From IMG/VR virus record IMGVR_UViG_3300037242_000102, positions 1-49,359 of that record: 49,359 nt of DNA; one strand, 5' to 3'. A program made the position numbers and the translations under genes. Source of the DNA: a virus. Shown in pieces: positions 4,556-45,389 of this stretch. The notes under the pieces were generated by a model. It worked only from the letters and a program-made list of their open reading frames with translations. It was not told where the DNA came from and ran no database searches. How positions within the stretch are numbered: the stretch's first letter is position 1; each line of letters starts with the position of its first letter.

Positions 4556-5533
4556 GTGAATGATAGTTCAACTGGAGGTTTCCTACTTCCACTCATCCCG
4601 CCACCGGCGCCGCTTGAAGACGACGCACTGGACGACTTTCTGCAAGCGTGGGTAACCGGGCTTACGGGGTTACCTCCTGAGATGGTTCGACCACGTTGGC
4701 AAACACCGACACCTACCCGCCCACAATCAACAACCGACTGGGTAGCTATTGGAATAACTGACGAGCAACCAGAGTATGGTTTCGTTACATGGCATCATGG
4801 AGGCCAGAAAGCTTTCGGAGGGATTACCTTTCCATCCAACCCATCACCCGGTGATACGATAAACGTCAACGGGTTTCAATTCACGTTTACGAACATCGCA
4901 CCGACCGATGACAGTCAGGTCGCAATCGGGTCTTCGCTCGGCATGACGCTGTTCAATCTGCTAGTCAATATCGATCATCAAACCGATGCACGGCTGACGG
5001 TCATGGACTACCAAGTCCTTGGCAGTAGGTTTATGTGCACAGCTACAGTGTCCGGCACAACGGGCAACACATACACCCTAGCGGCATCAGCCGCAACGGT
5101 ATCAGCCGACACGTTGTTCGGTGGTGATAGCGATGGCTTCGACGAATACCAGCGCCACGAAGACGTAACAGTGCTGGCAACATTCTACGGGCCGCACTCG
5201 CGCGGCAACGCAAAGACGTTCCGCGACGGGATGTCAATCCCACAAAATCGCGAAATTCTGCAGTTGAATTATATGAACCTTGCTTCGACAAACTGCAAGG
5301 TCCGGCATATCCCAGAGTTGTACAATCAAACATGGTTCCACCGCAGCGACATTGAATTTTGCCTGAGGGTTGCGATCGATCGCTGCTACGCGGTTAAGAA
5401 CTTGCTGTCCGCGCCAATCCAACTATTTACTGATATCGGCCTTATTACGCAAGGAATGGCAGGCCCGGCTCAGCCGGTTCGTCAAAACGATTATCCGCCA
5501 GTACCTGCCCCACTTCCGTTTCCAAGAGGATAA
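4556..5533 (+). CDS. Tail terminator/neck protein (LIC_12616-like) with inserted domain
   Basis: 325 residues from a GTG preceded by AAAAGGGG. Residues 15-85 carry the neck-terminator signature: PLEDDALDDFLQAWVTGLTG, RPRWQ, then DWVAIGI. The rest of that domain resumes near residue 200 with EDVTVLATFYGPHSRGNA and runs to FCLRVAIDRCY. Between them, residues 88-195, sits an extra beta-rich domain (GDTINVNGFQFTF, IGSSLGMTLFNLLVNI, GNTYTLAASAATVSADTLFGG) that is not part of the usual fold. A similar domain is inserted in the next gene. The protein should cap the tail tube at the head side. Confidence 0.75.
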   Translation: MNDSSTGGFLLPLIPPPAPLEDDALDDFLQAWVTGLTGLPPEMVRPRWQTPTPTRPQSTTDWVAIGITDEQPEYGFVTWHHGGQKAFGGITFPSNPSPGDTINVNGFQFTFTNIAPTDDSQVAIGSSLGMTLFNLLVNIDHQTDARLTVMDYQVLGSRFMCTATVSGTTGNTYTLAASAATVSADTLFGGDSDGFDEYQRHEDVTVLATFYGPHSRGNAKTFRDGMSIPQNREILQLNYMNLASTNCKVRHIPELYNQTWFHRSDIEFCLRVAIDRCYAVKNLLSAPIQLFTDIGLITQGMAGPAQPVRQNDYPPVPAPLPFPRG

Positions 5534-5539
5534 AATAAA

Positions 5540-7393
5540 ATGACTGTAAACATCGGACCACAAGGCCTGCCCTTGCAGGAGGTCGTCAACGTTCAGGTCA
5601 ATCTCTCGCCCTTGGCTGCGCAGATGCGCAACTTCGGCGCCATGATGTGCGTTGGCCCCACTGACGTCATCGACGTCAACGAGCGCATCCGCGAATACAC
5701 TTCGCTCACGGCAGTAGCCAACGACTTCGGCACGCTCGCACCCGAATATGAGGCCGCTGCGCTTCACTTTGGTCAGAGCCCGCAGCCCTCGATCTATTAC
5801 GTCGGCCGCTTCGCGCAAACGGCGAGCCACGCCACGCTTCGTTGCGGCGTCATGGCCCCCGGTATGCAGGCTATCGACAATTTCACCGGCATCTCGAACG
5901 GCGGCTTCTATGTCATGCTTGACGGCGTGCCATATGCCATCGCCTCGATCGATATGGTTGGCGGCACCGTCACCAATCTCAATGGCGTCGCGACATTAAT
6001 CCAAGACGCAATCAACGCGGTCTATACCCCAGGCGGCGCCACCGTAGCGTGGAATGCACCCGATCAGCAATTTGTGGTCGAGAGCGGCACCACCGGCGTG
6101 ACAAGCACGATTTCGTATCTTAACCTGCCGACAGCGGTGGGTAACTTCCACTACACCGGGAATATGACCGACACCTCAAACACCATCGTGGTGAACGGCG
6201 ACACGTGGACCTATGTTTCGGGCACCGCGACCGGATTGCAAATCTACATCGGCACCGACCTTCCAACCACACTGACGAACACCGTCGCCGCGTTGAACGC
6301 GAGCACCTCGGCCAACACACAAAAGATGACCTACGTGACCGATGGCGCCGCATATGTCTATGCAATTGCGGCTGCACCCGGCGTCGATGGTGACAACCTG
6401 ACCCTCTCAGTCGGCGGTTCCAACGTCGCCGCTTCCGGCGCCACCCTCTTAGGCGGCAACGCAACCGACATTTCAACCCTGATCTATGGGAACGAAGCCA
6501 CTGCGGAAGCACCGGCTGATGGCATTGCAGCGGAAACCCCGCTTGCGTGCATCGAGCTGCTCGACGATTTGGCTGGCGGTCTCTGGTACGGTTCGTACTT
6601 CGCTGCAACCATCACGAACTCCGATCACACCGGCGTCGCTGGCTACATCCAAGGTTCGCCGTGGTCGCATGTTTATGGCATCACCACGAATGATCCGCAG
6701 CTGTTCAATGCGGGCAGCACCACGGACATCGCTGCATCGTTGCAGACGCTGCAGTATTTCCGTTCGTTCGTCCAATATGCTGGCAGCACTGACTACGCAG
6801 TCGCGAGCGCGTTTGCTCGCTGCGCCACGATCAACTTTAGTGCGCAGAACTCGACCCTCACCCTGAAATTCAAACAGATGATTGGGGTCATGGGCGAGTA
6901 TATGACATCCTCGCAACAGGCGGTCCTCGAAGGCAAGAATGCAAACGTATACGTTTACTACAACGTTGGGCTCTCAAACCAAGCGATCGAAGAGCAGGGC
7001 GTCATGTCGAACGGGTACTTCTTTGACGAGGTGCAAAACTGCGACTGGTTGCAGAACTACATCCAAATCAACGTGTGGAATGTCCTCTACGGCGCCCTCA
7101 CGAAAATCCCACAGACCGACCCCGGTATCGCAACGTTGGTGAACGCGTGTAACTTCTCGATGAACATGGCCGTCTATAACGGCATGTGCGCGCCAGGCCA
7201 ATGGAACGTAGCTGGCTTCGGTCAGTTGAACCAGGGCGACTACCTGAACGAAGGTTATTATTGCTGGGTTATGCCGGTACGGCAACAGGCCCAGGCGGAT
7301 CGTGAAGCCCGCAAGGCGCCCCCGATCCAAGTCGCGGCCAAGTTGGCTGGCGCCGTGCACTTTGCATACGTCATCGTCACCGTCAACCGCTAA
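5540..7393 (+). CDS. Contractile tail sheath protein (DUF3383 family)
   Basis: 617 residues, longer than the roughly 450-500 typical of DUF3383 sheath proteins. The N-terminus (LQEVVNVQVNLSP, MCVGPTDVID, ERIREYTSLTAVANDFG) and C-terminus (FNEGYYCWVMP-like region, IQVAAKLAGAVHFAYVIVTVNR) match the family. The extra length is mainly a domain at about residues 200-306 (GNMTDTSNTIVVNGDTW ... GDNLTLSVGGSNVAASGATLLGG) resembling the insert in the upstream terminator protein. The sheath gene shows that the phage has a contractile tail. A GC-rich hairpin follows it. Confidence 0.9.
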   Translation: MTVNIGPQGLPLQEVVNVQVNLSPLAAQMRNFGAMMCVGPTDVIDVNERIREYTSLTAVANDFGTLAPEYEAAALHFGQSPQPSIYYVGRFAQTASHATLRCGVMAPGMQAIDNFTGISNGGFYVMLDGVPYAIASIDMVGGTVTNLNGVATLIQDAINAVYTPGGATVAWNAPDQQFVVESGTTGVTSTISYLNLPTAVGNFHYTGNMTDTSNTIVVNGDTWTYVSGTATGLQIYIGTDLPTTLTNTVAALNASTSANTQKMTYVTDGAAYVYAIAAAPGVDGDNLTLSVGGSNVAASGATLLGGNATDISTLIYGNEATAEAPADGIAAETPLACIELLDDLAGGLWYGSYFAATITNSDHTGVAGYIQGSPWSHVYGITTNDPQLFNAGSTTDIAASLQTLQYFRSFVQYAGSTDYAVASAFARCATINFSAQNSTLTLKFKQMIGVMGEYMTSSQQAVLEGKNANVYVYYNVGLSNQAIEEQGVMSNGYFFDEVQNCDWLQNYIQINVWNVLYGALTKIPQTDPGIATLVNACNFSMNMAVYNGMCAPGQWNVAGFGQLNQGDYLNEGYYCWVMPVRQQAQADREARKAPPIQVAAKLAGAVHFAYVIVTVNR

Positions 7394-7406
7394 TCAGAAC
7401 TTTCAG

Positions 7407-7425
7407 CGGGGGCCATCAGCCCCCG
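7407..7425 (+). terminator. GC-rich hairpin after the sheath gene
   Basis: Perfect 7-bp stem CGGGGGC / GCCCCCG with a 5-base loop, 14 bases after the sheath stop. Only TCTTC follows, so it may slow or partly terminate transcription, or protect the very abundant sheath message. Confidence 0.6.
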
Positions 7426-7452
7426 TCTTCACATATACAGGAGATTTGCAAA

Positions 7453-7926
7453 ATGACCTTCGTTAGACAATGGGCTAACGGCCAGGTTGTCGAAGTCTAC
7501 CATCCGTTCTGGCCACTGAGCCCTTGGGCTGTTGGGCCGGTGTGGATACCGGCTATCGTGACAAACCTTGCCTCGAACCCAGACACAGACACAGGCGTGC
7601 TGGAAACTTACACCGTCGCTTTACCCGATGGGTCATTAAGACCGTTCGACGTCCGCTATATTAGACCCCGCGATCCGAAGTTACCGGTGCCTCCGGCAAG
7701 ACCCATCCCTGCCGTTGTCTTTACACGGACGTTCCCCGATGCCGCGAGCGTGAAGGTGTTCTATCAACCGGTGGTGAGCTGGGGCTGGTCAAGCCCGCAG
7801 TGGGTCTACGGGCATGTTGTAGGCCTTTATAGCCAACCGGGGCTGCTTGTGCCGGAACAATATTACGTGGTTCTCGACAACGGGATGATGAGCGTTTTTG
7901 ACGTCGCATTACTTCGCTGGCGCTGA
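7453..7926 (+). CDS. Tandem SH3/Tudor-like repeat protein
   Basis: 157 residues, no known family. It is an internal duplication: residues 10-77 read VVEVYHPFW ... PVWIPAIVTN ... YTVALPDGSLRPFDVRYIRP, and residues 98-156 read VKVFYQPVVSW ... PQWVYGHVVGLY ... YYVVLDNGMMSVFDVALLRW. Both halves look like small five-strand barrels. AGGAG precedes the ATG by 10 bases. Its first residues, MTFVRQWANGQVVEV, match the start of an early gene at 34684-34962 (MAFVRTYGDGTPVEV), so the phage carries paralogues in late and early modules. It lies between sheath and tube genes and may be a tail accessory protein. Confidence 0.75.
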   Translation: MTFVRQWANGQVVEVYHPFWPLSPWAVGPVWIPAIVTNLASNPDTDTGVLETYTVALPDGSLRPFDVRYIRPRDPKLPVPPARPIPAVVFTRTFPDAASVKVFYQPVVSWGWSSPQWVYGHVVGLYSQPGLLVPEQYYVVLDNGMMSVFDVALLRWR

Positions 7927-7946
7927 GAGAAGAGGAAAGCAAGATA

Positions 7947-8432
7947 ATGGCCATTCAAGTCTATTCATTCCTTGACGTATCGGCCACCATCCAAGGCCCA
8001 AATGGAAGTTTTATTTTGGGCGTTGGTGCGGCGGTAGCGGAGGAAGGGATCACAACGGACTACAGCATCGACAGCGAAACGATGAACATCGGCGCTGACG
8101 GCACACCAATGCATTCGTTGCACGCGTCGAAGGGCGGCATGATTGGCGTCAAGCTGCAAAAGACATCGCCGACGAACTCGAACCTCATGACGATGTGGAA
8201 GGCTGACCGTGCGAACGGCTCGCAAGATTGGGGCCAGAACACGCTCACGATCACGAACACCGCGCGCGGCGACACCATTGTCGCTCAATCGGTTGCATTC
8301 CGCAAACCACCGGCGAACGTTAACGCGCAAGACGGCGGCATCATGGATTGGATTTTCAACTGCGGCACCATCGACGAGACAATCGGCGACGGCAATCCAA
8401 CCAGCAATGCAATTTCGCAGGGCGCTGGCTAA
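7947..8432 (+). CDS. Tail tube protein (DUF3277 family)
   Basis: 161 residues. Family landmarks: YSFLDVSATIQGPNGSFILG at the start, GAAVAEEGITTDY, GADGTPMHSLHASKGG, LQKTSPTNSNL and the C-terminal VAFRKPPANVNAQDGG with DWIFNCGTID. DUF3277 proteins form the inner tube of Pam3-like and related contractile tails. The sheath-tube order is standard. Confidence 0.9.
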   Translation: MAIQVYSFLDVSATIQGPNGSFILGVGAAVAEEGITTDYSIDSETMNIGADGTPMHSLHASKGGMIGVKLQKTSPTNSNLMTMWKADRANGSQDWGQNTLTITNTARGDTIVAQSVAFRKPPANVNAQDGGIMDWIFNCGTIDETIGDGNPTSNAISQGAG

Positions 8433-17481: not shown

Positions 17482-17892
17482 ATGCGCGTTCGCAAAATGA
17501 AACTCCCGCCTTCCAACACGATCGTCTACACGCTGGACGGCGGCGATTGGATTTTTGGCCACGGCTCACAGGACTACTTCATCGACGTGCCCGACGCGGT
17601 GGCACAGGTTTGCCTCACCCGTCTCGCCCTCAATCGAGGCGAGTGGTTCCTTGATACAAGCGATGGTACACCCTGGAACACACAGGTACTCGGGAAATTT
17701 ACGGGCAACGTGCGCGATCTCATAATTCAATCTCGCATCAATGGCACGCCGGGGCTCGCACCCAATGGAATTACCTCCTATTCGTCATCCCTCGGCGCAT
17801 CGGTTCCGCGTCAGTACCTCGTCAACGCTAGTCTGACAACGATCTATTCAGCTAATCAGGTTGGTATTGCGGGCACGATATCACAGCCGTGA
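17482..17892 (+). CDS. Baseplate wedge protein (gp25-like)
   Basis: 136 residues; AAGGTGAC precedes the ATG. Signature: DVPDAVAQVCLTRLALNRGEW, FLDTSDGTPWNTQVLGK, then IIQSRINGTPGLAPNGI. These proteins initiate sheath polymerisation at the baseplate. Its last 12 bases are also the end of an antisense HNH gene. Confidence 0.8.
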   Translation: MRVRKMKLPPSNTIVYTLDGGDWIFGHGSQDYFIDVPDAVAQVCLTRLALNRGEWFLDTSDGTPWNTQVLGKFTGNVRDLIIQSRINGTPGLAPNGITSYSSSLGASVPRQYLVNASLTTIYSANQVGIAGTISQP

Positions 17893-18300
17893 TCGTTTCC
17901 AAAACATCGCCTTACATGTTCGGCATTCTCGGCTTCCCGCTGGGTTGATATATGTATTCTCTCGCGTGTACTCGTGGCCACGAGGGCAGTGGGTTTTGTT
18001 TCTATTGATGTCGCCCACCTTTTGTCCGAGCCCCCTTCTAAGGTTTTCTCCACGCGTGACAGCCTCAAGGTGGTCTGGGTTGACACATTGGTGATTGCGG
18101 CAAAGGTGATCGATATCAAATCCATCTGGGATTTGGACCTTGTAAAGCTCGTATGACACCCTGTGAGCATGCGGCTTCTTTAGACCTACTCGAAATCGCC
18201 CGTAACCCTTGTGGTTTACGTCGGCAAGCCAAAGCCAGCACCCGCTGTTCGGCTCTGGAATGAATTTCTCTTCAAACCGTTCTAAGAGGGTTTTTCTCAT
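17881..18300 (-). CDS. HNH homing-type endonuclease, antisense within the baseplate operon
   Basis: 139 residues, MRKTLLERFEEKFIPEPNS onward. Core: SGCWLWLADVNHKGYGRF, AHRVSYELYK, then FDIDHLCRNHQCVNPDHL and an additional zinc knuckle (CPRGHEYTRENTY, CRTCK). It fills the whole gap between gp25-like and Baseplate J genes on the opposite strand. Its ATG and the ATG of the Baseplate J gene share the palindrome CATG at 18298-18301. The Baseplate J ribosome-binding site therefore lies within its coding region. Confidence 0.85.
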   Translation of the reverse strand: MRKTLLERFEEKFIPEPNSGCWLWLADVNHKGYGRFRVGLKKPHAHRVSYELYKVQIPDGFDIDHLCRNHQCVNPDHLEAVTRGENLRRGLGQKVGDINRNKTHCPRGHEYTRENTYINPAGSRECRTCKAMFWKRSRL

Positions 18301-19525
18301 GTCTGGCAACACCCCGATCTGCGTGATAAGTGCTACTGGTCTCAATAGGCCGACATTCGCCGCGTGTCAAGCATATTTTACCACCGGCTTCCAAATCATC
18401 TATGGTGCCGACACTTATCTCGGGAATGATTGCCAGGATGGGCAATTTGTTGGCCTTCTCGCCACCGCCCTCGACGACTGTAACGGCGAAACCGTAGCCG
18501 CGTACAATAGTTTTATACCGGACCAATCGGTGGGCACCGGCCTCTCCTCGCTCGTCAAACTCAATGGCATCGCACGCTTCAACCCGAGCTATTCAACGGC
18601 GCCCGTCGTCATCATCGGTCAAGGCAACACGGACATCATCAACGGCTATGCTGTTGATCCCGCTGGTAACCAGTGGGCTCTCCCGCCGCTCGTCACCATC
18701 CCCGGTGGTGGCGAGGTTGACTCAATCGTGACCTGTGCCACACAAGGCGCAATCCAAGCGGCGCCGGGTGATATCAGCACGATCGGAAATGCGCAACTGG
18801 GGTGGCAGTCGATCACAAACACCACGGCCGCAATTCCCGGGGCTCCCGTAGAAACAGACGGCCAACTGCGGGCTCGCCGGGATGATAGCACCGAGCTATC
18901 TGCCCTGTCGATGCTGCAGGCCCTACAGGGCGGCCTAGAGGCCATTGCCGGAAATGGGAACGTTTGGGTCTACCAAAATGACACCGCAGTCGTCAACGCT
19001 TTGGGCATTCCGGCCAACTGCATAGCTTGTGTTATCAACAATCTCTCGGTCACGCAGGCGCTCATCGGCGGCATCATTTATCAGTACAAGCCCCCGGGGA
19101 TGCCGACATTCGGCAACACGTCTATCATCGTCAACGATCCAATTTCGGGCGTGCCGGATGTGATCAATTATTCGACGGTCACGCCGGAACAAATCCTCGT
19201 AACCGTACAAGTGCACCCACTGAATGGTTGGAGCACCACGATCCAAACAAATATCGCCAACGCAATCGCCGCATGGATCAATGCCCTGCCTCCCGGCACG
19301 GGTTTCTCTGTGTCCGATCTGTTCATGCCAAGCCTCGTGAATGGCTCTACGGCGCTGGGCTTTGGCACCTATTCAATCCCCATGAATGGCATAGCAGCAG
19401 CGATCTCTCCGGCGACCCCCGGCGTGGCGGACATCGCGGTGGCGTACAACCAGCAATGCGCGGCCACTGAGAGCCCGGTAGGGAACACGACCTACCCTGG
19501 AAACATCACTTTCACGCTAATTTAA
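18299..19525 (+). CDS. Baseplate J-like wedge protein
   Basis: 408 residues from the ATG at 18299, 8 bases after AAGAGGG. Pattern of the Baseplate J/gp47 family: an N-terminal helix-rich region (LGNDCQDGQFVGLLATALDD), IPGGGEVDSIVTCATQGAIQ, an extended arm ending in ETDGQLRARRDDSTELSALS, and a C-terminal part with INALPPGTGFSVSDLFM. It forms the wedge that joins hub and fibres. Confidence 0.8.
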   Translation: MSGNTPICVISATGLNRPTFAACQAYFTTGFQIIYGADTYLGNDCQDGQFVGLLATALDDCNGETVAAYNSFIPDQSVGTGLSSLVKLNGIARFNPSYSTAPVVIIGQGNTDIINGYAVDPAGNQWALPPLVTIPGGGEVDSIVTCATQGAIQAAPGDISTIGNAQLGWQSITNTTAAIPGAPVETDGQLRARRDDSTELSALSMLQALQGGLEAIAGNGNVWVYQNDTAVVNALGIPANCIACVINNLSVTQALIGGIIYQYKPPGMPTFGNTSIIVNDPISGVPDVINYSTVTPEQILVTVQVHPLNGWSTTIQTNIANAIAAWINALPPGTGFSVSDLFMPSLVNGSTALGFGTYSIPMNGIAAAISPATPGVADIAVAYNQQCAATESPVGNTTYPGNITFTLI

Positions 19526-24920: not shown

Positions 24921-25507
24921 CACCAATACTTACACAGGCGGGACCCTATAAGGTCAACTGGGTTCCATGCCCGTTCTCCCGCAAACGCGTGCAACTCGAC
25001 TTACCGCGCGCTGGCATACTCCACACGACGGAAGGTGGTTTCGAAGGGTCGCTCGAAGTCTTCGAGCAGCACGACGCGCCACACTTCGAGGTGGGCCTGG
25101 ACAAGGGCGTTCCACGCATCAACCAACTCGTGAAAGTTGGCTACATCGGTTCGGCCTGCCGGGCACACAATGATAAAGCCATCGTGCAAATTGAGATGGT
25201 TGCTTTCTCGAAGGAAACACCGTGGTTCCCCGACGACAAAACGGCAGATGCTCTCGCTCACCTTATGGTAGCAATCGAAGCGGAATATGGCGTGCCGCTG
25301 TCGCATCCGTTTGCGGATGATGACTGGCCACGCGCAGGTCACAACCCGCATCGTAATGCGGGTAAATTTGGGAAGATCGCGGGGTGGTATGGGCATGGTG
25401 ACATGCCAGACCCCGATGTGCATTGGGACCCCGGACATTTTTTGTATTCTGTGCTATTTAAGAAGTGTCAGGAGATAAAAGATGGATCAACCGAAAGCGT
25501 AAAATGA
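24917..25507 (+). CDS. N-acetylmuramoyl-L-alanine amidase (Amidase_2 type)
   Basis: 196 residues from the ATG at 24917. Zinc ligands expected of the family are visible: AGILHTTEGG, then GWYGHGDMPDPDVHWDPG with His and Asp positions, and APHFEVGLDKG as the central strand. This would cleave the glycan-peptide bond of peptidoglycan. It is the stronger of two adjacent endolysin candidates. Confidence 0.85.
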   Translation: MTPILTQAGPYKVNWVPCPFSRKRVQLDLPRAGILHTTEGGFEGSLEVFEQHDAPHFEVGLDKGVPRINQLVKVGYIGSACRAHNDKAIVQIEMVAFSKETPWFPDDKTADALAHLMVAIEAEYGVPLSHPFADDDWPRAGHNPHRNAGKFGKIAGWYGHGDMPDPDVHWDPGHFLYSVLFKKCQEIKDGSTESVK

Positions 25508-40061: not shown

Positions 40062-40280
40062 TCATTTTCTTGCCCTCATGATCCGCAGCTTCAATTCACC
40101 GGCCCACTGCTCCGCTTCCAAGGGGGATGCTCCGCGGATATTGATCAACGCTGTAACGTGTTTTTGGGGGAAATCGATGGCGAGAACGTCATCGCCGAGC
40201 ACCCACGCATTTGCTGGCTGTCCATATGCCTCAATGGCTTCTTCGATCGTTTCCCCAATTGATTTTAACTCTCTTGTCAT
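40062..40280 (-). CDS. Small early protein
   Basis: 72 residues starting in an ATGA overlap with the HNH-AP2 gene. ETIEEAIEAYGQPANAWV, VLAIDFPQKHVTALINIRG, LEAEQWAGELKLRIM suggest an alpha/beta domain. Unknown. Confidence 0.6.
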   Translation of the reverse strand: MTRELKSIGETIEEAIEAYGQPANAWVLGDDVLAIDFPQKHVTALINIRGASPLEAEQWAGELKLRIMRARK

Positions 40281-40798
40281 GCCAAATCCCCTACATCATT
40301 AAGGGTCGCCCATTCCCCAAAGGCCTCGATTGCGGCTGTGTTATAGGCAAGAGCCGCTTGACGTTCATCGGCGAACCGGCCTAGAGATTTCTTATGTCTA
40401 TTAATCTGAATTTGAGCCCTCCATTTGCCCCTTTCTTTTTCATAGGTGACACCCTTGAATATACTAGACCCCTTTTGATGTCTACGCCCTTGACAGTTTA
40501 CGAGGTGAGAGACTTCGTGCAAATTATCCGGGTGATTATTTAATCCATCGTGGTCAGGATGATGTGCCACGTCCATTCCAAGCAACGGCCATCGACCATG
40601 CACCATACTCCAAACAATTTCATGAGCAAAATGCAATCGACCATTGACCCTAACCTCACGATAAAAGGTTCGACCATTAGCCTTAACACATCCCGCCACG
40701 TCACCGACCTTTATGACATTTGAACGTGCTATTTTCCAACGGAGAATGCCATTTCCGTCAAGGTAAAATAATTCTCTCAATTGTTCAACGGTTGTCAT
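40277..40798 (-). CDS. HNH-AP2 homing-type endonuclease
   Basis: 173 residues from the ATGA overlap at 40798. A short N-terminal helix and WKIARSNVIKVGDVAGC lead to an HNH core (HFAHEIVWSMVHGRWPLLG, DVAHHPDHDGLNNHPDNL). The C-terminal 60 residues form an AP2-type DNA-binding domain (SSIFKGVTYEKERGKWRAQI, ADERQAALAYNTAAIEAFGE). It is the gene immediately downstream of the polymerase and is coupled to it. Confidence 0.9.
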   Translation of the reverse strand: MTTVEQLRELFYLDGNGILRWKIARSNVIKVGDVAGCVKANGRTFYREVRVNGRLHFAHEIVWSMVHGRWPLLGMDVAHHPDHDGLNNHPDNLHEVSHLVNCQGRRHQKGSSIFKGVTYEKERGKWRAQIQINRHKKSLGRFADERQAALAYNTAAIEAFGEWATLNDVGDLA

Positions 40799-42981
40799 GA
40801 AAGCTCCCCGACAAAGAGGCAACCTTTAACATCTAGCATACGGAAACCTTCAGGACAACACCCCTTGAAACACCACACCGATTTCCCCACATTGCAATGA
40901 TCTAATATTGCAGGTGCAAGTCGCTCGAAATCAAACCTTCCAATCTTGAAAAAGATTTCGCCGCTATCATCCATTATCCACCCCTGTAACGCTCTTGTGG
41001 GGCCTCGAAACTCTCGTCCGTGGCGTTTTGCCACCCGGGCGGCTTCATTTTCATCTATAGTAACACACTTGTTTATTTTTCCAACACACATAACCTGGCC
41101 GCGCGTGTCGCCGGGGTGAACATCTGCAATTGCCGTGTCCGGCGTCGCGATGTTCAAATTGGGCTTGGCGCGCTTGTAGAAGGTCATGACCGGGAACAAA
41201 TCATCGATCTCGGTCTTCGCCTCGGTAAGCTTTTTCATAAGACTGTCCCTTAAAGGTGTCTTATTCACGCGGTGTGAAAGGATTTCACAAACGGCGGCCG
41301 GTCCTATCCCTTTGATGGCGGTAAGCGGCCCAACCAATTGCTGATGACCGTCAGCGTCAAGACCCACTGACCAGCGATCAACACTATTGGATGGATCAAC
41401 AGAAACATAGTTCACTCCTTCGCGATATAGCTCGCGCAAAATTGTCAGCTGTTTGTCGGGCTCGGTTCCTTCCTTGTCCAATGTCGCGGCGGCGAAAGGT
41501 GTCGGAAAGTGAGCCTTTAGGTACATGCAATAGTAAGAGACGATAGCATAAGCTACAGCGTGACTTCTATTGAATGAATAATTGCCATGGAACACAATTT
41601 CGTCGAACGTCTTATTGGCGATGACGGTATTCACCCCATTGGCCTGCGCGCCGGTCACGAACATCTCACGATACTTGTTGATCACGTCCGCGCCGAATTT
41701 TTTACTTATAGCCTTGCGGAGCTTGGTGACATCCTCCCAGCTCATGCCCCCAATTTCACGGGCAATACGCATGATCTGTTCTTGATAGACGAGGCAGCCT
41801 AGCGTCGGTGCAAGGATCGGTTCAAATAGCGGGTGAGGGTACGCAACCTCTTCCTCACCATTCTTACGGCGAACCCAGATTGTCGCTTCGCCCGAATTAG
41901 TTGGCCCTGGGCGGACCAGGGCGGTGAGCGCTGCCAGGTCTTCAATGTTCTCAATATGGACCTGTCGTGCGAGCGCTTGTGACGCTCCCCCTTGAAACTG
42001 GAATACACCTGAAAATCTCCCTCGGTTAATGACGTCGAAAGCAGCTGGATCGTCAAGTGGAAGCGTTTCGAAATATCCGCTGTTCGAGCAGACTTTCATG
42101 CATGGATCAATTATCTCTAAGCATCGCTCGAAGATCGATAATTGCGAGAGGCCTAAAACGTCAACCTTGAGCAAGTTGAACTCTGTCGCATCTTGTCCGT
42201 CACACATGGTGGTTCCACTACCACTTAAGGCTGTGTAATCCATGATTGGGCCATTAGTCAGCACAAGACCACATGCGTGCGTCCCTTGCGTGAATGGGTG
42301 CCCCTCTATCTTCGTCACGACAACAGCTTCGGGATGTTTAGCAATAAAGGCTTGTCCAATTGGCACCGTGTCAAACGTTTCTTCGAGTACCGGCCGATCA
42401 TCACCAGACGACCTCTCAATCACGGCGGCGGCAACGGCATCAGTTTCATATTTCGGAATGCGAAGACTTTGATTGACCACAACGTTCAAAGCGGAATGGC
42501 TACGTAAGTAAGTTACCGTGCCAAGCCGCGCTACGCGATCGCTACCGTATTTGCGGCTCACATAGTTGAAGAGGCTGCACCTTGGGAAGGCGGGATTGTC
42601 CCTACGTTCTTCACTGACATCGCTGTCGATATCCGGGAAGTCCGAACGATTCAAATCGAGGAAACGTTCAAAGAGCAAATCCCACTTGATCGGGTCCACA
42701 GTCGTAATTCCGAGCAAGTAGCAAACCAAGCTACCGGCCGACGATCCCCGACCAGGGCCAACTAACATCTCACTCTTTGCAAATCTAATCAGGTCATACA
42801 CGATAAAAAAGTACGGTGCGAAGTTTTTAGCCTCGATCACTTCAAGCTCACGATTGAAACGTGCTTCATAAACGGGATCGTTCCAAACACACGTTAGGAC
42901 GCTATTGTAGTATTCTTCCCAATGGCAGAGCCCCATACGAACGGCTCGCATTTCGCACAGTTTCCGTAGGGTAACTTTCAT
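40795..42981 (-). CDS. dnaE: DNA polymerase III alpha-type polymerase, polymerase part
   Basis: 728 residues from the ATG at 42981, 9 bases after GGGGAG. C-family polymerase landmarks: GPGRGSSAGSLVCYLLGIT, the catalytic pair in SDFPDIDSDV, LLKVDVLGLSQL with the third Asp, GVFQFQGG, TALVRPGPTNSG, CLVYQEQIMRIA and GNYSFNRSHAVAYA, with a helix-hairpin-helix part (AIKGIGPAAV). The N-terminal PHP domain is absent and is encoded by a separate gene just upstream (43106-43882). The two are colinear with ordinary DnaE. It should copy the phage genome together with the DnaQ-type exonuclease. Confidence 0.85.
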   Translation of the reverse strand: MKVTLRKLCEMRAVRMGLCHWEEYYNSVLTCVWNDPVYEARFNRELEVIEAKNFAPYFFIVYDLIRFAKSEMLVGPGRGSSAGSLVCYLLGITTVDPIKWDLLFERFLDLNRSDFPDIDSDVSEERRDNPAFPRCSLFNYVSRKYGSDRVARLGTVTYLRSHSALNVVVNQSLRIPKYETDAVAAAVIERSSGDDRPVLEETFDTVPIGQAFIAKHPEAVVVTKIEGHPFTQGTHACGLVLTNGPIMDYTALSGSGTTMCDGQDATEFNLLKVDVLGLSQLSIFERCLEIIDPCMKVCSNSGYFETLPLDDPAAFDVINRGRFSGVFQFQGGASQALARQVHIENIEDLAALTALVRPGPTNSGEATIWVRRKNGEEEVAYPHPLFEPILAPTLGCLVYQEQIMRIAREIGGMSWEDVTKLRKAISKKFGADVINKYREMFVTGAQANGVNTVIANKTFDEIVFHGNYSFNRSHAVAYAIVSYYCMYLKAHFPTPFAAATLDKEGTEPDKQLTILRELYREGVNYVSVDPSNSVDRWSVGLDADGHQQLVGPLTAIKGIGPAAVCEILSHRVNKTPLRDSLMKKLTEAKTEIDDLFPVMTFYKRAKPNLNIATPDTAIADVHPGDTRGQVMCVGKINKCVTIDENEAARVAKRHGREFRGPTRALQGWIMDDSGEIFFKIGRFDFERLAPAILDHCNVGKSVWCFKGCCPEGFRMLDVKGCLFVGELS

Positions 42982-43094
42982 GGGCAGAACTCCCCAAATA
43001 GTTTCTTTGCGCGTGAAATGCGCCACGCAATGGCCTCTTCTAACGTTTTACAATATTTACGAGCCCGTTTGCCTTGAATTGTGACGTACGCCAT
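42978..43094 (-). pseudogene. AP2-domain relic between the polymerase halves
   Basis: 38 residues, MAYVTIQGKRARKYCKTLEE then AIAWRISRAKKLFGEF. The pattern (a KY-x-K-T-LEEAI-x-x-R helix ending in KLFGEF) is the end of an AP2 domain as found in HNH-AP2 endonucleases such as the one at 40277-40798. It ends in the ATGA that starts the polymerase gene. I read it as the last remnant of an endonuclease gene inserted in dnaE. Confidence 0.55.
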
Positions 43095-43105
43095 AAAAGG
43101 CTCGC

Positions 43106-43882
43106 TCAGTAGTCAGCGTCATCTACTTCCCAATCTACTTGTGGTAACGTCGCTCGTTTCAAAGAAACGTTGCAACGCGCAAGCGCTGCGTCTCGATTTG
43201 CGAAAGCTTCATTTAACACCGTAGTAGGAACCCACGATAATTCAACCCTTAATTCATCATCCGTCATAAGATATTGGGCATAGGTTTGGGTACTCGCCCG
43301 CGCGCCTCTTTTCCCAAGGGTCCCTAACTCGCATCTGTATAGTTCCTTGTCTTCGGGCCGTAAAAATACATTGTCGCTCGTTATCATCATGGGCATCCCG
43401 GTAGCGGCGGCGCGCTGATAGAGAGAACGCGGCACAGATGGCGAGAGCCCAAAATAACATTCGTGTGGCCATGATTGATCCTTGTTCGTTAATTCGAAGA
43501 GATTGTCCAGCAACAGCGCGTTGCCCATAATCTTGATGACGCCGGGTGCGCTGATGGCCTCACGATAGGTGAGGCATGCCGTGGGGCGCGCAGTCGCCTG
43601 CGCGATCAATTCGTGAAGCGGGCGCAGGTCATCGATGGCATAGAATGTCCACCAATCGCGCACCGTCTTTTTGGCACCGGCACTTGGGCTCACACCCAAC
43701 TCGACGCCGAAGACCGGCTTGATGTGGGCCTTCGCACAAAGGTCCGCCCACTTTCTATAGGCGAAGGTTGACTCACGATCACTAATGCTGGCCGCTCCCC
43801 AACCTAGTTCTTTCACCCGTTCAAATACATCTGGCAATTTGCCAAACGCGTAGCGGAAGCTATAGCCCGACCGTACCCTCAT
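43106..43882 (-). CDS. DNA polymerase III alpha-type PHP domain, separate gene
   Basis: 258 residues from the ATG at 43882 (ATGA overlap); an ATG at 43891 is also in frame. It matches the DnaE N-terminal part: MRVRSGYSFRYAFGKL, GWGAASISDRESTFAYRKW, KAHIKPVFGVELGV, YFGLSPSVPRSLYQRAAA, and the end NRDAALARCNVSLKRATLP. The metal-binding His and Asp of the first strand (HSD in E. coli) are replaced here by RSG, so PHP catalysis is probably lost. It must pair with the polymerase encoded downstream. Confidence 0.8.
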   Translation of the reverse strand: MRVRSGYSFRYAFGKLPDVFERVKELGWGAASISDRESTFAYRKWADLCAKAHIKPVFGVELGVSPSAGAKKTVRDWWTFYAIDDLRPLHELIAQATARPTACLTYREAISAPGVIKIMGNALLLDNLFELTNKDQSWPHECYFGLSPSVPRSLYQRAAATGMPMMITSDNVFLRPEDKELYRCELGTLGKRGARASTQTYAQYLMTDDELRVELSWVPTTVLNEAFANRDAALARCNVSLKRATLPQVDWEVDDADY

Positions 43883-44022
43883 TTCATCCATCCGCGAAGG
43901 AAGGTCCGTGCCACTTCACGCACCACCGCAGTCCAAAACCACAGGATGCAGGCCAGAATGAAAGCCATCACGATGACGGCTGTGCCGCCTGCAACCAGCG
44001 TGCTCCAAAATTCCGTTGTCAT
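43879..44022 (-). CDS. Small membrane protein
   Basis: 47 residues from the ATG at 44022, behind GGAGGTG. One membrane segment (TAVIVMAFILACILWFWTAV), then a basic amphipathic end. ATGA overlaps join it to genes on both sides. Confidence 0.6.
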   Translation of the reverse strand: MTTEFWSTLVAGGTAVIVMAFILACILWFWTAVVREVARTFLRGWMK

Positions 44023-44162
44023 AGGTCCACCTCCAATGTGCCGGGGACAAGCCAGCAACAAGCTGACGGTCCGCCAAAATACAGAACCCACCACCCGCGC
44101 TCGACGCGACTTGACTGGTCCTTAGGGTCAAAGTAAAAATCGTGGTAACAGGTTAGGGTCAC
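44019..44162 (-). CDS. Small early protein
   Basis: 47 residues from a GTG overlapping the exonuclease stop (GTGA): TLTCYHDFYFDPKDQSSR, then VERGWWVLYFGGPSACCW. Beta-rich and Cys-containing; no family. It ends in the ATGA of the next gene. Confidence 0.55.
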   Translation of the reverse strand: MTLTCYHDFYFDPKDQSSRVERGWWVLYFGGPSACCWLVPGTLEVDL

Positions 44163-44698
44163 GATAGAACCCCCTCTTGATATAGTTTGACGGCGCAACG
44201 GATCAAGGCCTGCGTATCGCTCTTTGCCCGGTGGGCTTCCTTGAACTTTGCGCCGAAGAGCGTCTCGTGCAACTCCTGCAGCGAGAGCCGATACCCTTTA
44301 AGATGCATTGTTTGTTCAACTGAACAAATTATGCGCGGGAAATGAATGTGCATGCCGACACGTTCAAACGCAATGTCCAAGATTTCAACATCGAAAGCGG
44401 CGTTATGGGCGATCACGTTTGGGCACCGTTCCTCCAAGATTTTCTTGATGCCCTCGGCATATCGGTCGAATGTTAAACAGTCTCTTACCATCTCTTGTGT
44501 TATGCCGTGAACCTTCTCTGCTTCCTCAGACCATTGAAGCGTTGGATGGAATAATTGATCCCAATCGTCGATGATCTCGCCGGTGGCCAGGTCAACATCG
44601 GCCATGTACAAATCTAACACCTCCGGCTGCTTGGCGAGCGGCAAGATGCGGTTAAGTATGAGGCCCGACGTCTCGCAATCTAGGGCTAGGATACGCAT
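44159..44698 (-). CDS. dnaQ: DnaQ-type 3'-5' exonuclease
   Basis: 179 residues from the ATG at 44698, behind GGGGAGGG. All DEDDh motifs are present: LALDCETSG (Exo I), NVIAHNAAFDVEILD (Exo II), and AHRAKSDTQAL (Exo III, His and Asp). It would proofread for the C-family polymerase encoded two small genes and a PHP gene away. Confidence 0.85.
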   Translation of the reverse strand: MRILALDCETSGLILNRILPLAKQPEVLDLYMADVDLATGEIIDDWDQLFHPTLQWSEEAEKVHGITQEMVRDCLTFDRYAEGIKKILEERCPNVIAHNAAFDVEILDIAFERVGMHIHFPRIICSVEQTMHLKGYRLSLQELHETLFGAKFKEAHRAKSDTQALIRCAVKLYQEGVLS

Positions 44699-45135
44699 TT
44701 TTTTTTCCCTCCCCAATGTTCTGGACCCATCGCTCTTTGTTTAGTCGCGCGCCAAGTACACCATTCTTGTCGCTCTTCAAGTGACATTCTATCCCAGCGT
44801 TGTTTTGAGCCTTGTCCGGCGCGCTGCGCGCCTTCAATTAAAAGTTCTTTAGCGCGTGGGTGTCGTTCCATAAAATCGCGTCGATTATCTTTCTTTGTGC
44901 CGGGTACTAAGTGATCCGGCCGGATGCAACGTCGATTATCACACGTATGGCGCAGAATTTTTCCTTCCGGTATTGGCCCCACAAAACACTCGTATGAAGC
45001 GTGATGCGCGGGCCATGATCGACAGTTATATTCTGCAGTACCATATGTGTCAGTTCCATCTCGCGTATCCCAGACCCAACACCCATTGGGTCCCATTACA
45101 ATTTTATTGAGAAGGTATTCTTTAAGAGTTTTCAT
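44686..45135 (-). CDS. HNH homing-type endonuclease
   Basis: 149 residues from the ATG at 45135, which overlaps the stop of the upstream SH3-like gene (ATGA). Core: GPNGCWVWDTRDGTDTYGTA, PAHHASYECFVGPIPEG, then RHTCDNRRCIRPDHLVPG, followed by a helical DNA-binding tail (KDNRRDFMERHPRAKELL). Its end overlaps the exonuclease start by 13 bases, so it is wedged into the replication operon. Confidence 0.85.
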   Translation of the reverse strand: MKTLKEYLLNKIVMGPNGCWVWDTRDGTDTYGTAEYNCRSWPAHHASYECFVGPIPEGKILRHTCDNRRCIRPDHLVPGTKKDNRRDFMERHPRAKELLIEGAQRAGQGSKQRWDRMSLEERQEWCTWRATKQRAMGPEHWGGKKKCVS

Positions 45136-45389
45136 GGCCGTCTCAATTGTCCGGTGGGCACCGCGTAGGTTGTAAGCAAACCATCGACAGTCTGCACGGC
45201 GGCAATTCAATAGGACCAATTGATAGCCAGGATCACAACCCCGATGCTCTCGCCTTGTAGCGTGTCGCGATCATTGTATGGATCACGGAAGGAGCCCCAC
45301 CCGCTTGGGAAATAGAGCACCAATTCGCCCACCTCCAACGGAATGATCTTCTCTTTGGCCTTCATTACGAAGTCAGCATTCTCGCTCAT
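45132..45389 (-). CDS. SH3-like protein interrupted by an in-frame UGA
   Basis: 60 residues (PLEVGELVLYFPSGWGSF ... SIGVVILAINWSY) end at TGA 45207-45209, but the same frame continues for 24 codons (IAAVQTVDGLLTTYAVPTGQ) to a second TGA that is the ATGA coupling point for the HNH gene. The full reading resembles one barrel of the SH3-like proteins at 7453 and 34684. Start by ATGA overlap at 45389. A nonsense mutation, readthrough or a sequencing error would each explain this. Confidence 0.55.

Follow-up and report, generated by a model that had tools for sequence, protein, structure and literature searches.

A phage dnaE gene divided between its PHP and palm domains, with a probable homing endonuclease remnant in the break

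The alpha subunit of DNA polymerase III, the C-family replicative polymerase DnaE, is encoded by two adjacent genes in IMGVR_UViG_3300037242_000102, a single uncultured virus record of metagenomic origin, of which the whole 49,359-nucleotide (nt) stretch analyzed here is termed the window. The phage is myovirus-like and carries tail sheath, tape measure and baseplate hub genes. One of the two dnaE genes specifies the N-terminal PHP domain and the other the remainder of the enzyme, and between them lies a 38-codon open reading frame (ORF) that resembles the tail of an HNH-AP2 homing endonuclease. The reading that we favor, to which we give a probability of roughly three in four, is that insertion of such an endonuclease split dnaE at the linker between PHP and palm, that its tail was kept for expression, and that the two halves reassemble.

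The two pieces of dnaE

The elements of the divided gene, in the order of transcription, are as follows:

43106–43891, minus strand: PHP gene, the N-terminal domain of DnaE as a separate protein of 261 amino acids (aa) (Pfam PHP, 7.2e-9; phrog_405 DNA polymerase, 47–330)
42978–43094, minus strand: 38-codon ORF, putative remnant of the C-terminus of an HNH-AP2 homing endonuclease of T5 type (phrog_99, E 1.3e-6)
40795–42981, minus strand: polymerase gene, encoding a 728-aa product with the palm, the fingers and the C-terminal region of DnaE (Pfam DNA_pol3_alpha, 1.1e-55; DNA_pol3_finger, 4.7e-42)

An earlier reading of the sequence alone (hereafter, the sequence-only reading) had described dnaE as separate PHP and polymerase genes, and the coordinates, the shared minus strand, the Pfam matches and the structural matches all confirm this. 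The AlphaFold model of the PHP product (predicted local distance difference test, pLDDT, 80.5) retrieved the PHP domain of Escherichia coli DnaE from the PDB with Foldseek (E 8.5e-13), the top matches being the DNA polymerase III alpha–epsilon chimeras 4gx8 and 4gx9, which comprise only ~310 residues; the model of the polymerase half likewise matches DnaE structures in the PDB. The polymerase gene begins at an internal ATG, not at the GTG at 43026, and its product retains the catalytic aspartates, namely the D117/D119/D121 motif and D274, all in invariant columns of the alignment. Palm and finger domains in the one gene and a PHP domain in the other place the pair in the C family.

Aligned to one-piece phage DnaE proteins, the PHP product accounts for the first ~250 residues and the polymerase product for what follows, with few residues between: e.g., on the DnaE of BcepF1, residues 3–257 of the PHP product align with 5–246 and residues 10–702 of the polymerase product with 253–923. 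The linker, measured from the conserved L at the end of PHP to the TLRK motif in an alignment of 141 relatives, has 7 residues in 117 of them, 5 in 22 and 8 in 1, with one relative having no residue at all at this place, as against 15 residues in the window; therefore, no residues have been lost and about 8 gained. A second expansion is seen between TLRK and a conserved Y, where 34 residues stand in the window against typically 21 in relatives. The extra stretches are:

43109–43132, minus strand: WEVDDADY, the 8 residues that end the PHP product and exceed the linker seen in one-piece relatives
42889–42927, minus strand: a 13-residue stretch, CHWEEYYNSVLTC, near the polymerase N-terminus, unique to the window and absent from close relatives in the linker alignment

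The split sits at one domain boundary and every domain is present. The alignments and linker lengths thus bear out the claim that the halves end and begin at adjacent positions of DnaE: both products are colinear with the full-length protein and no large segment is missing between them.

An endonuclease remnant in the break

The PHP stop is followed, after 11 nt, by the 38-codon ORF, which ends in a TGA that shares bases with the polymerase ATG (ATGA). The ORF product matches phrog_99 (HNH endonuclease) at profile positions 228–264, at the end of the region (108–269) matched by the intact HNH-AP2 gene described below and covering only the second part of the AP2 domain. Pfam AP2 gives no match to so short a piece. 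A custom HNH-AP2 profile scores it at 18.4 bits, with the best of 100,000 shuffles reaching 11.2. At the level of individual proteins, it is identical to the F-TflVI-type protein of Tequintavirus GEC_vB_N7 (hereafter N7) at 17/33 positions (z of 19 versus shuffles) and to a Sugarland protein at 18/30, far above shuffles; a tblastn match has an E of 8e-4, and near-identical tails in other T5-like phages carry the F-TflVI annotation. The phrog_99, custom-profile and tblastn results agree with the sequence-only reading, which had taken this frame for the end of an AP2 domain, and do not point to another family. Hence, the product is the C-terminal part of an AP2 domain. No HNH domain is found in it by Pfam, and the frame upstream is PHP-coding DNA with stops.

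Because the ORF has an intact start and stop and is packed compactly with its neighbors, it might be asked whether it encodes a small, functional DNA-binding protein of AP2 type, brought in between the two genes, and is not a relic in decay, a possibility given some color by satellites that co-opt the DNA-binding domains of endonucleases (PMC10448857). The product has no counterpart of the first part of the AP2 fold, the profile match being confined to 228–264, and this makes such a role very improbable; no second copy of the ORF was found, so that selection on it is unmeasurable.

An intact member of the same family lies just beyond the polymerase gene:

40277–40798, minus strand: intact HNH-AP2 endonuclease gene (HNH_3, 1.5e-8; AP2, 2.1e-6; phrog_99, 1.6e-46, covering profile 108–269)

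The sequence-only reading had drawn this gene into its account of the split. The gene is real, and follows the polymerase gene immediately, with the polymerase stop overlapping its start as ATGA, but it is not the source of the remnant and gives no direct support to that account. The idea that the 38-codon ORF is a copy of it was rejected, the similarity between the two being no greater than that of shuffles; therefore, the two endonucleases arrived separately, and they belong to different branches of the family.

The remnant also holds a candidate ribosome site for the polymerase gene:

42990–42995, minus strand: GGGGAG, Shine-Dalgarno-like, within the FGEF codons of the remnant and 8 nt upstream of the polymerase ATG

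Its duplex energy with the anti-Shine-Dalgarno sequence is -8.0 kcal/mol, the median for random 20-mers being -3.9; as a predicted ribosome site it is good, not exceptional. The stop of T5-type HNH-AP2 genes overlaps the start of the gene that follows in a comparable way (TAATG in both N7 and Sugarland), and in T5-like phages these genes sit between other genes, e.g., between nrdA and nrdB in Sugarland.

Relatives and the derived state of the split

Related dnaE loci, 156 in all, were gathered from IMG/VR and from annotated phages; the set is partly redundant, and its counts are not counts of independent events. PHP and polymerase matches fall within one ORF in 149 of them, and three more (L003, L074 and L101) are also unsplit at the PHP–palm junction though outside the automatic rule, giving 152/156 unsplit. 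The remaining loci are two on contigs that are cut off, one (L005) in which dnaE is shattered by frameshifts and one (L066) that is split. Relatives with an unsplit gene, which the sequence-only reading had suggested looking for, are thus the rule, and because dnaE is in one piece in 152/156 related loci, the split in the window phage is read as the derived state. L066 (IMGVR_UViG_3300033153_002881, 5288–8040) has the only other break at this junction among the 156 loci: the PHP end has a 29-residue deletion, the PHP and polymerase ORFs overlap in ATGGTAA, and no trace of an endonuclease is seen. Its dnaE was split independently at the same linker.

Frameshifted dnaE genes in other records, such as L005, and the derivation of the window from a single uncultured record with no reads raise the question of a metagenome assembly or sequencing artefact. 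A simple indel cannot yield 125 nt of AP2-coding DNA in the gap along with a clean ATGA overlap, and a chimera would need the correct order, strand and domain boundary at its join; we regard an artefact as most improbable. Least probable of all is splicing, at the RNA or protein level, that would rejoin the parts through a group I intron or a split intein. Precedents exist in an intein-like insert of ~260 residues, which bears an HNH motif and sits at the conserved FNKSHS motif of another dnaE in the set (L081, IMGVR_UViG_3300005343_000043, 5248–8250) and in the split intein of polymerase B of phage MIJ3 (PMC6892783). The spacer between the PHP and polymerase genes is only ~125 nt. A group I or II intron was rejected: Rfam at gathering scores matches nothing in the window, and the junction shows no intron-like feature. 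A split intein was rejected too, since Pfam finds only PHP and DnaE domains on the halves and the products align to DnaE within a few residues of the break.

Other interruptions were encountered in the course of these comparisons. A lone in-frame stop lies after the fingers in the polymerase of L101 (7588–7590) and may be an error, a pseudogene or a case of readthrough. In Bacillus phage Jayan (PQ299153; 2774–3043), ~270 nt interrupt dnaE exactly at the catalytic PDIDTD motif; its annotation shows one polymerase gene on each side of a 76-aa ORF, and the insert, which has no Rfam match, looks like an intron or other insertion. Further, PHROG families 11165 (without a PHP match), 7513 and 13169 (both ending just inside the palm) resemble fragments of split DnaE, hinting that split dnaE is commoner in phages than described.

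Closer relatives were sought in several ways: a DNA-level search of the phage collection with positions 25001–49359 found none; single-protein scans found only one distant locus with the polymerase and none with the PHP protein or the helicase; and a scan of genome contigs returned a bacterial dnaE.

Order of events

The proposed course of events is as follows. The inserting element would have been a free-standing gene for an HNH-AP2 homing endonuclease of T5 F-TflVI type, which entered dnaE at the PHP–palm linker and made two genes of one. An element bringing its own 3' ribosome site and start codon could split a gene in this way while leaving the downstream half translatable. Deletion would then have removed the HNH part and half of the AP2 domain, the remaining 38-codon tail supplying the ribosome site and the stop/start overlap by which the polymerase half may be translated. 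The PHP and polymerase proteins would bind each other, restoring an active polymerase of the C family, and the PHP protein may in addition serve as a dock for the neighboring proofreading exonuclease.

The sequence-only reading had similarly supposed that a homing endonuclease inserted into dnaE, split it and decayed, and colinearity, the AP2 identity of the ORF and the unsplit relatives argue for this, the order of the steps being a reconstruction. Insertion is favored because no residues were lost and residues were gained; both insertion as the cause and the path of decay are probable. The tail was probably retained as an expression element after loss of the nuclease, to judge from the position of the motif and overlap within it, and the two halves are predicted, again with probability on their side, to reassemble into an active polymerase. 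That a PHP/polymerase split is compatible with a viable phage follows from Krampusvirus, about 30 isolated phages of which have the two as separate, adjacent genes. The more specific proposal, that a homing endonuclease divided a C-family replicative polymerase precisely at the PHP–palm boundary and that its dead tail is retained as the source of the ribosome site and start codon of the polymerase half, is advanced tentatively. If it is true, the 3' end of a selfish gene makes gene splitting survivable and later turns into a regulatory element of the phage.

Several observations weigh against an origin by insertion. Neither a full endonuclease nor a relic occurs at the PHP–palm site in any of the 156 dnaE loci, so that a relative with the complete element, likewise suggested by the sequence-only reading, was not found; T5-like genes, none of them next to dnaE, were recovered when the AP2 tail was sought as a degenerate DNA pattern. 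The nearest polymerases are only 45–49% identical, and therefore the exact insertion point is unreadable. The overlap with the next gene occurs in 7 of the 13 HNH-AP2 genes inspected and is thus common, not universal. Finally, L066 reached a split at the PHP–palm linker through its 29-residue deletion, with no relic, and Krampusvirus is split at the same linker without a trace of an endonuclease; a split, then, need not come from insertion.

These last two cases favor the main rival to insertion, in which the gene was split first, by a small deletion or frameshift at a tolerant PHP–palm linker, the gap being colonized only afterwards by a homing endonuclease that then decayed; the order is equally open in a review's treatment of gene 43 of phage 25 versus 44RR (PMC2988022). 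However, residues were lost in L066 whereas in the window none were lost and about 8 gained, which insertion fits better, and the split-first course requires two events, not one. We hold it to be unlikely, though it is the strongest of the alternatives.

Genomic neighborhood

On the minus strand, the genes are transcribed in the order HNH endonuclease, DnaQ-like exonuclease, small ORF, PHP, 38-codon ORF, polymerase and HNH-AP2 endonuclease. Those upstream of the PHP gene are:

44686–45219, minus strand: second HNH endonuclease gene, preceding that of the exonuclease (HNH_3, 5.1e-12; phrog_826, 1.7e-25)
44159–44716, minus strand: gene for a DnaQ-like 3'-5' exonuclease (RNase_T, 5.4e-16; phrog_192, 3e-33)
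43879–44094, minus strand: small membrane-like ORF between the exonuclease and PHP genes

An exonuclease gene lies immediately upstream of a one-piece dnaE in Pluto, Kyle, Carpasina and Ka2, an order that the window matches. A promoter scan gave nothing above chance. HNH genes adjoin or lie near the downstream side of dnaE in L002 (4138–4671), L003 (6476–6919) and L134 (4663–4977), as in the window (40277–40798), and an HNH gene upstream of the exonuclease is found both in the window and in Ss1 (L003, 2261–2770). The surroundings of the polymerase module are a recurrent endonuclease hot spot across several distant phages. A third intact HNH endonuclease gene of the window (phrog_826; 17881–18345, minus strand) lies elsewhere, within a plus-strand block of structural genes.

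Comparison with known systems

Phage genes split by insertions include nrdA of Aeh1, the topoisomerase gene 60/39 of T4 and the family B gene 43 of phage 25, and of these nrdA and gene 43 remain functional (PMC2988022). The divided dnaE of the window is a further, well-supported case of this known type of event, which is now extended to a C-family replicative polymerase. A literature search, which left most subscription journals outside it, yielded no description of a split dnaE that harbors an endonuclease relic. Proximity to a DNA polymerase gene is frequent among HNH-AP2 endonuclease genes (29%; PMC10448857).

In Aeromonas phage Aeh1, as proposed for the window, an HNH homing endonuclease within an essential replication-related gene has left two complementary pieces; however, the gene is the ribonucleotide reductase nrdA, the endonuclease is mobE and not of the HNH-AP2 kind, and experiments showed that the split enzyme works (PMC2988022). 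In Aeromonas phage 25, genes 43A and 43B each encode a part of the replicative polymerase, an endonuclease lies at the point of division and the order of events is ambiguous; unlike the window, the polymerase is of family B and the endonuclease of the seg type, and the halves co-purify with activity (PMC2988022). The group 2.2 jumbo phages also have Pol III alpha in two proteins, but there the catalytic core is cut, the genes are far apart and stand alongside a family B polymerase, and none of the other Pol III domains is present (PMC7824862). With regard to the inserted element, the remnant corresponds to the C-terminal AP2 part, with the stop/start overlap, of T5 F-TflVI (hegF) and other HNH-AP2 (IPA-HNH) endonucleases, from which it differs in having neither the HNH domain nor half of AP2, and so cannot be an active endonuclease.

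A further parallel in layout is Krampusvirus (Microbacterium phages Krampus, Erudite and relatives). Here, too, two neighboring genes share DnaE, with the break between PHP and palm, and each is annotated as a DnaE-like polymerase III alpha; the two-gene layout stands in all 30 of the Microbacterium records listed (e.g., Erudite gp55/gp56). Krampusvirus differs in having no trace of an endonuclease between the genes, which are 10 nt apart, in a long extra PHP tail and in belonging to a distant branch of DnaE. In Erudite (OR434018; 1312–4660), the PHP piece bears a ~45-residue low-complexity tail, which may be out-of-frame linker sequence. A natural two-part DnaE makes the role of PHP, in structure and exonuclease docking versus catalysis, addressable with separate proteins that are mixed. 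The window would show a late stage, in which the endonuclease is nearly gone, and such a late-stage relic suggests a route to gapless split genes such as those of Krampusvirus.

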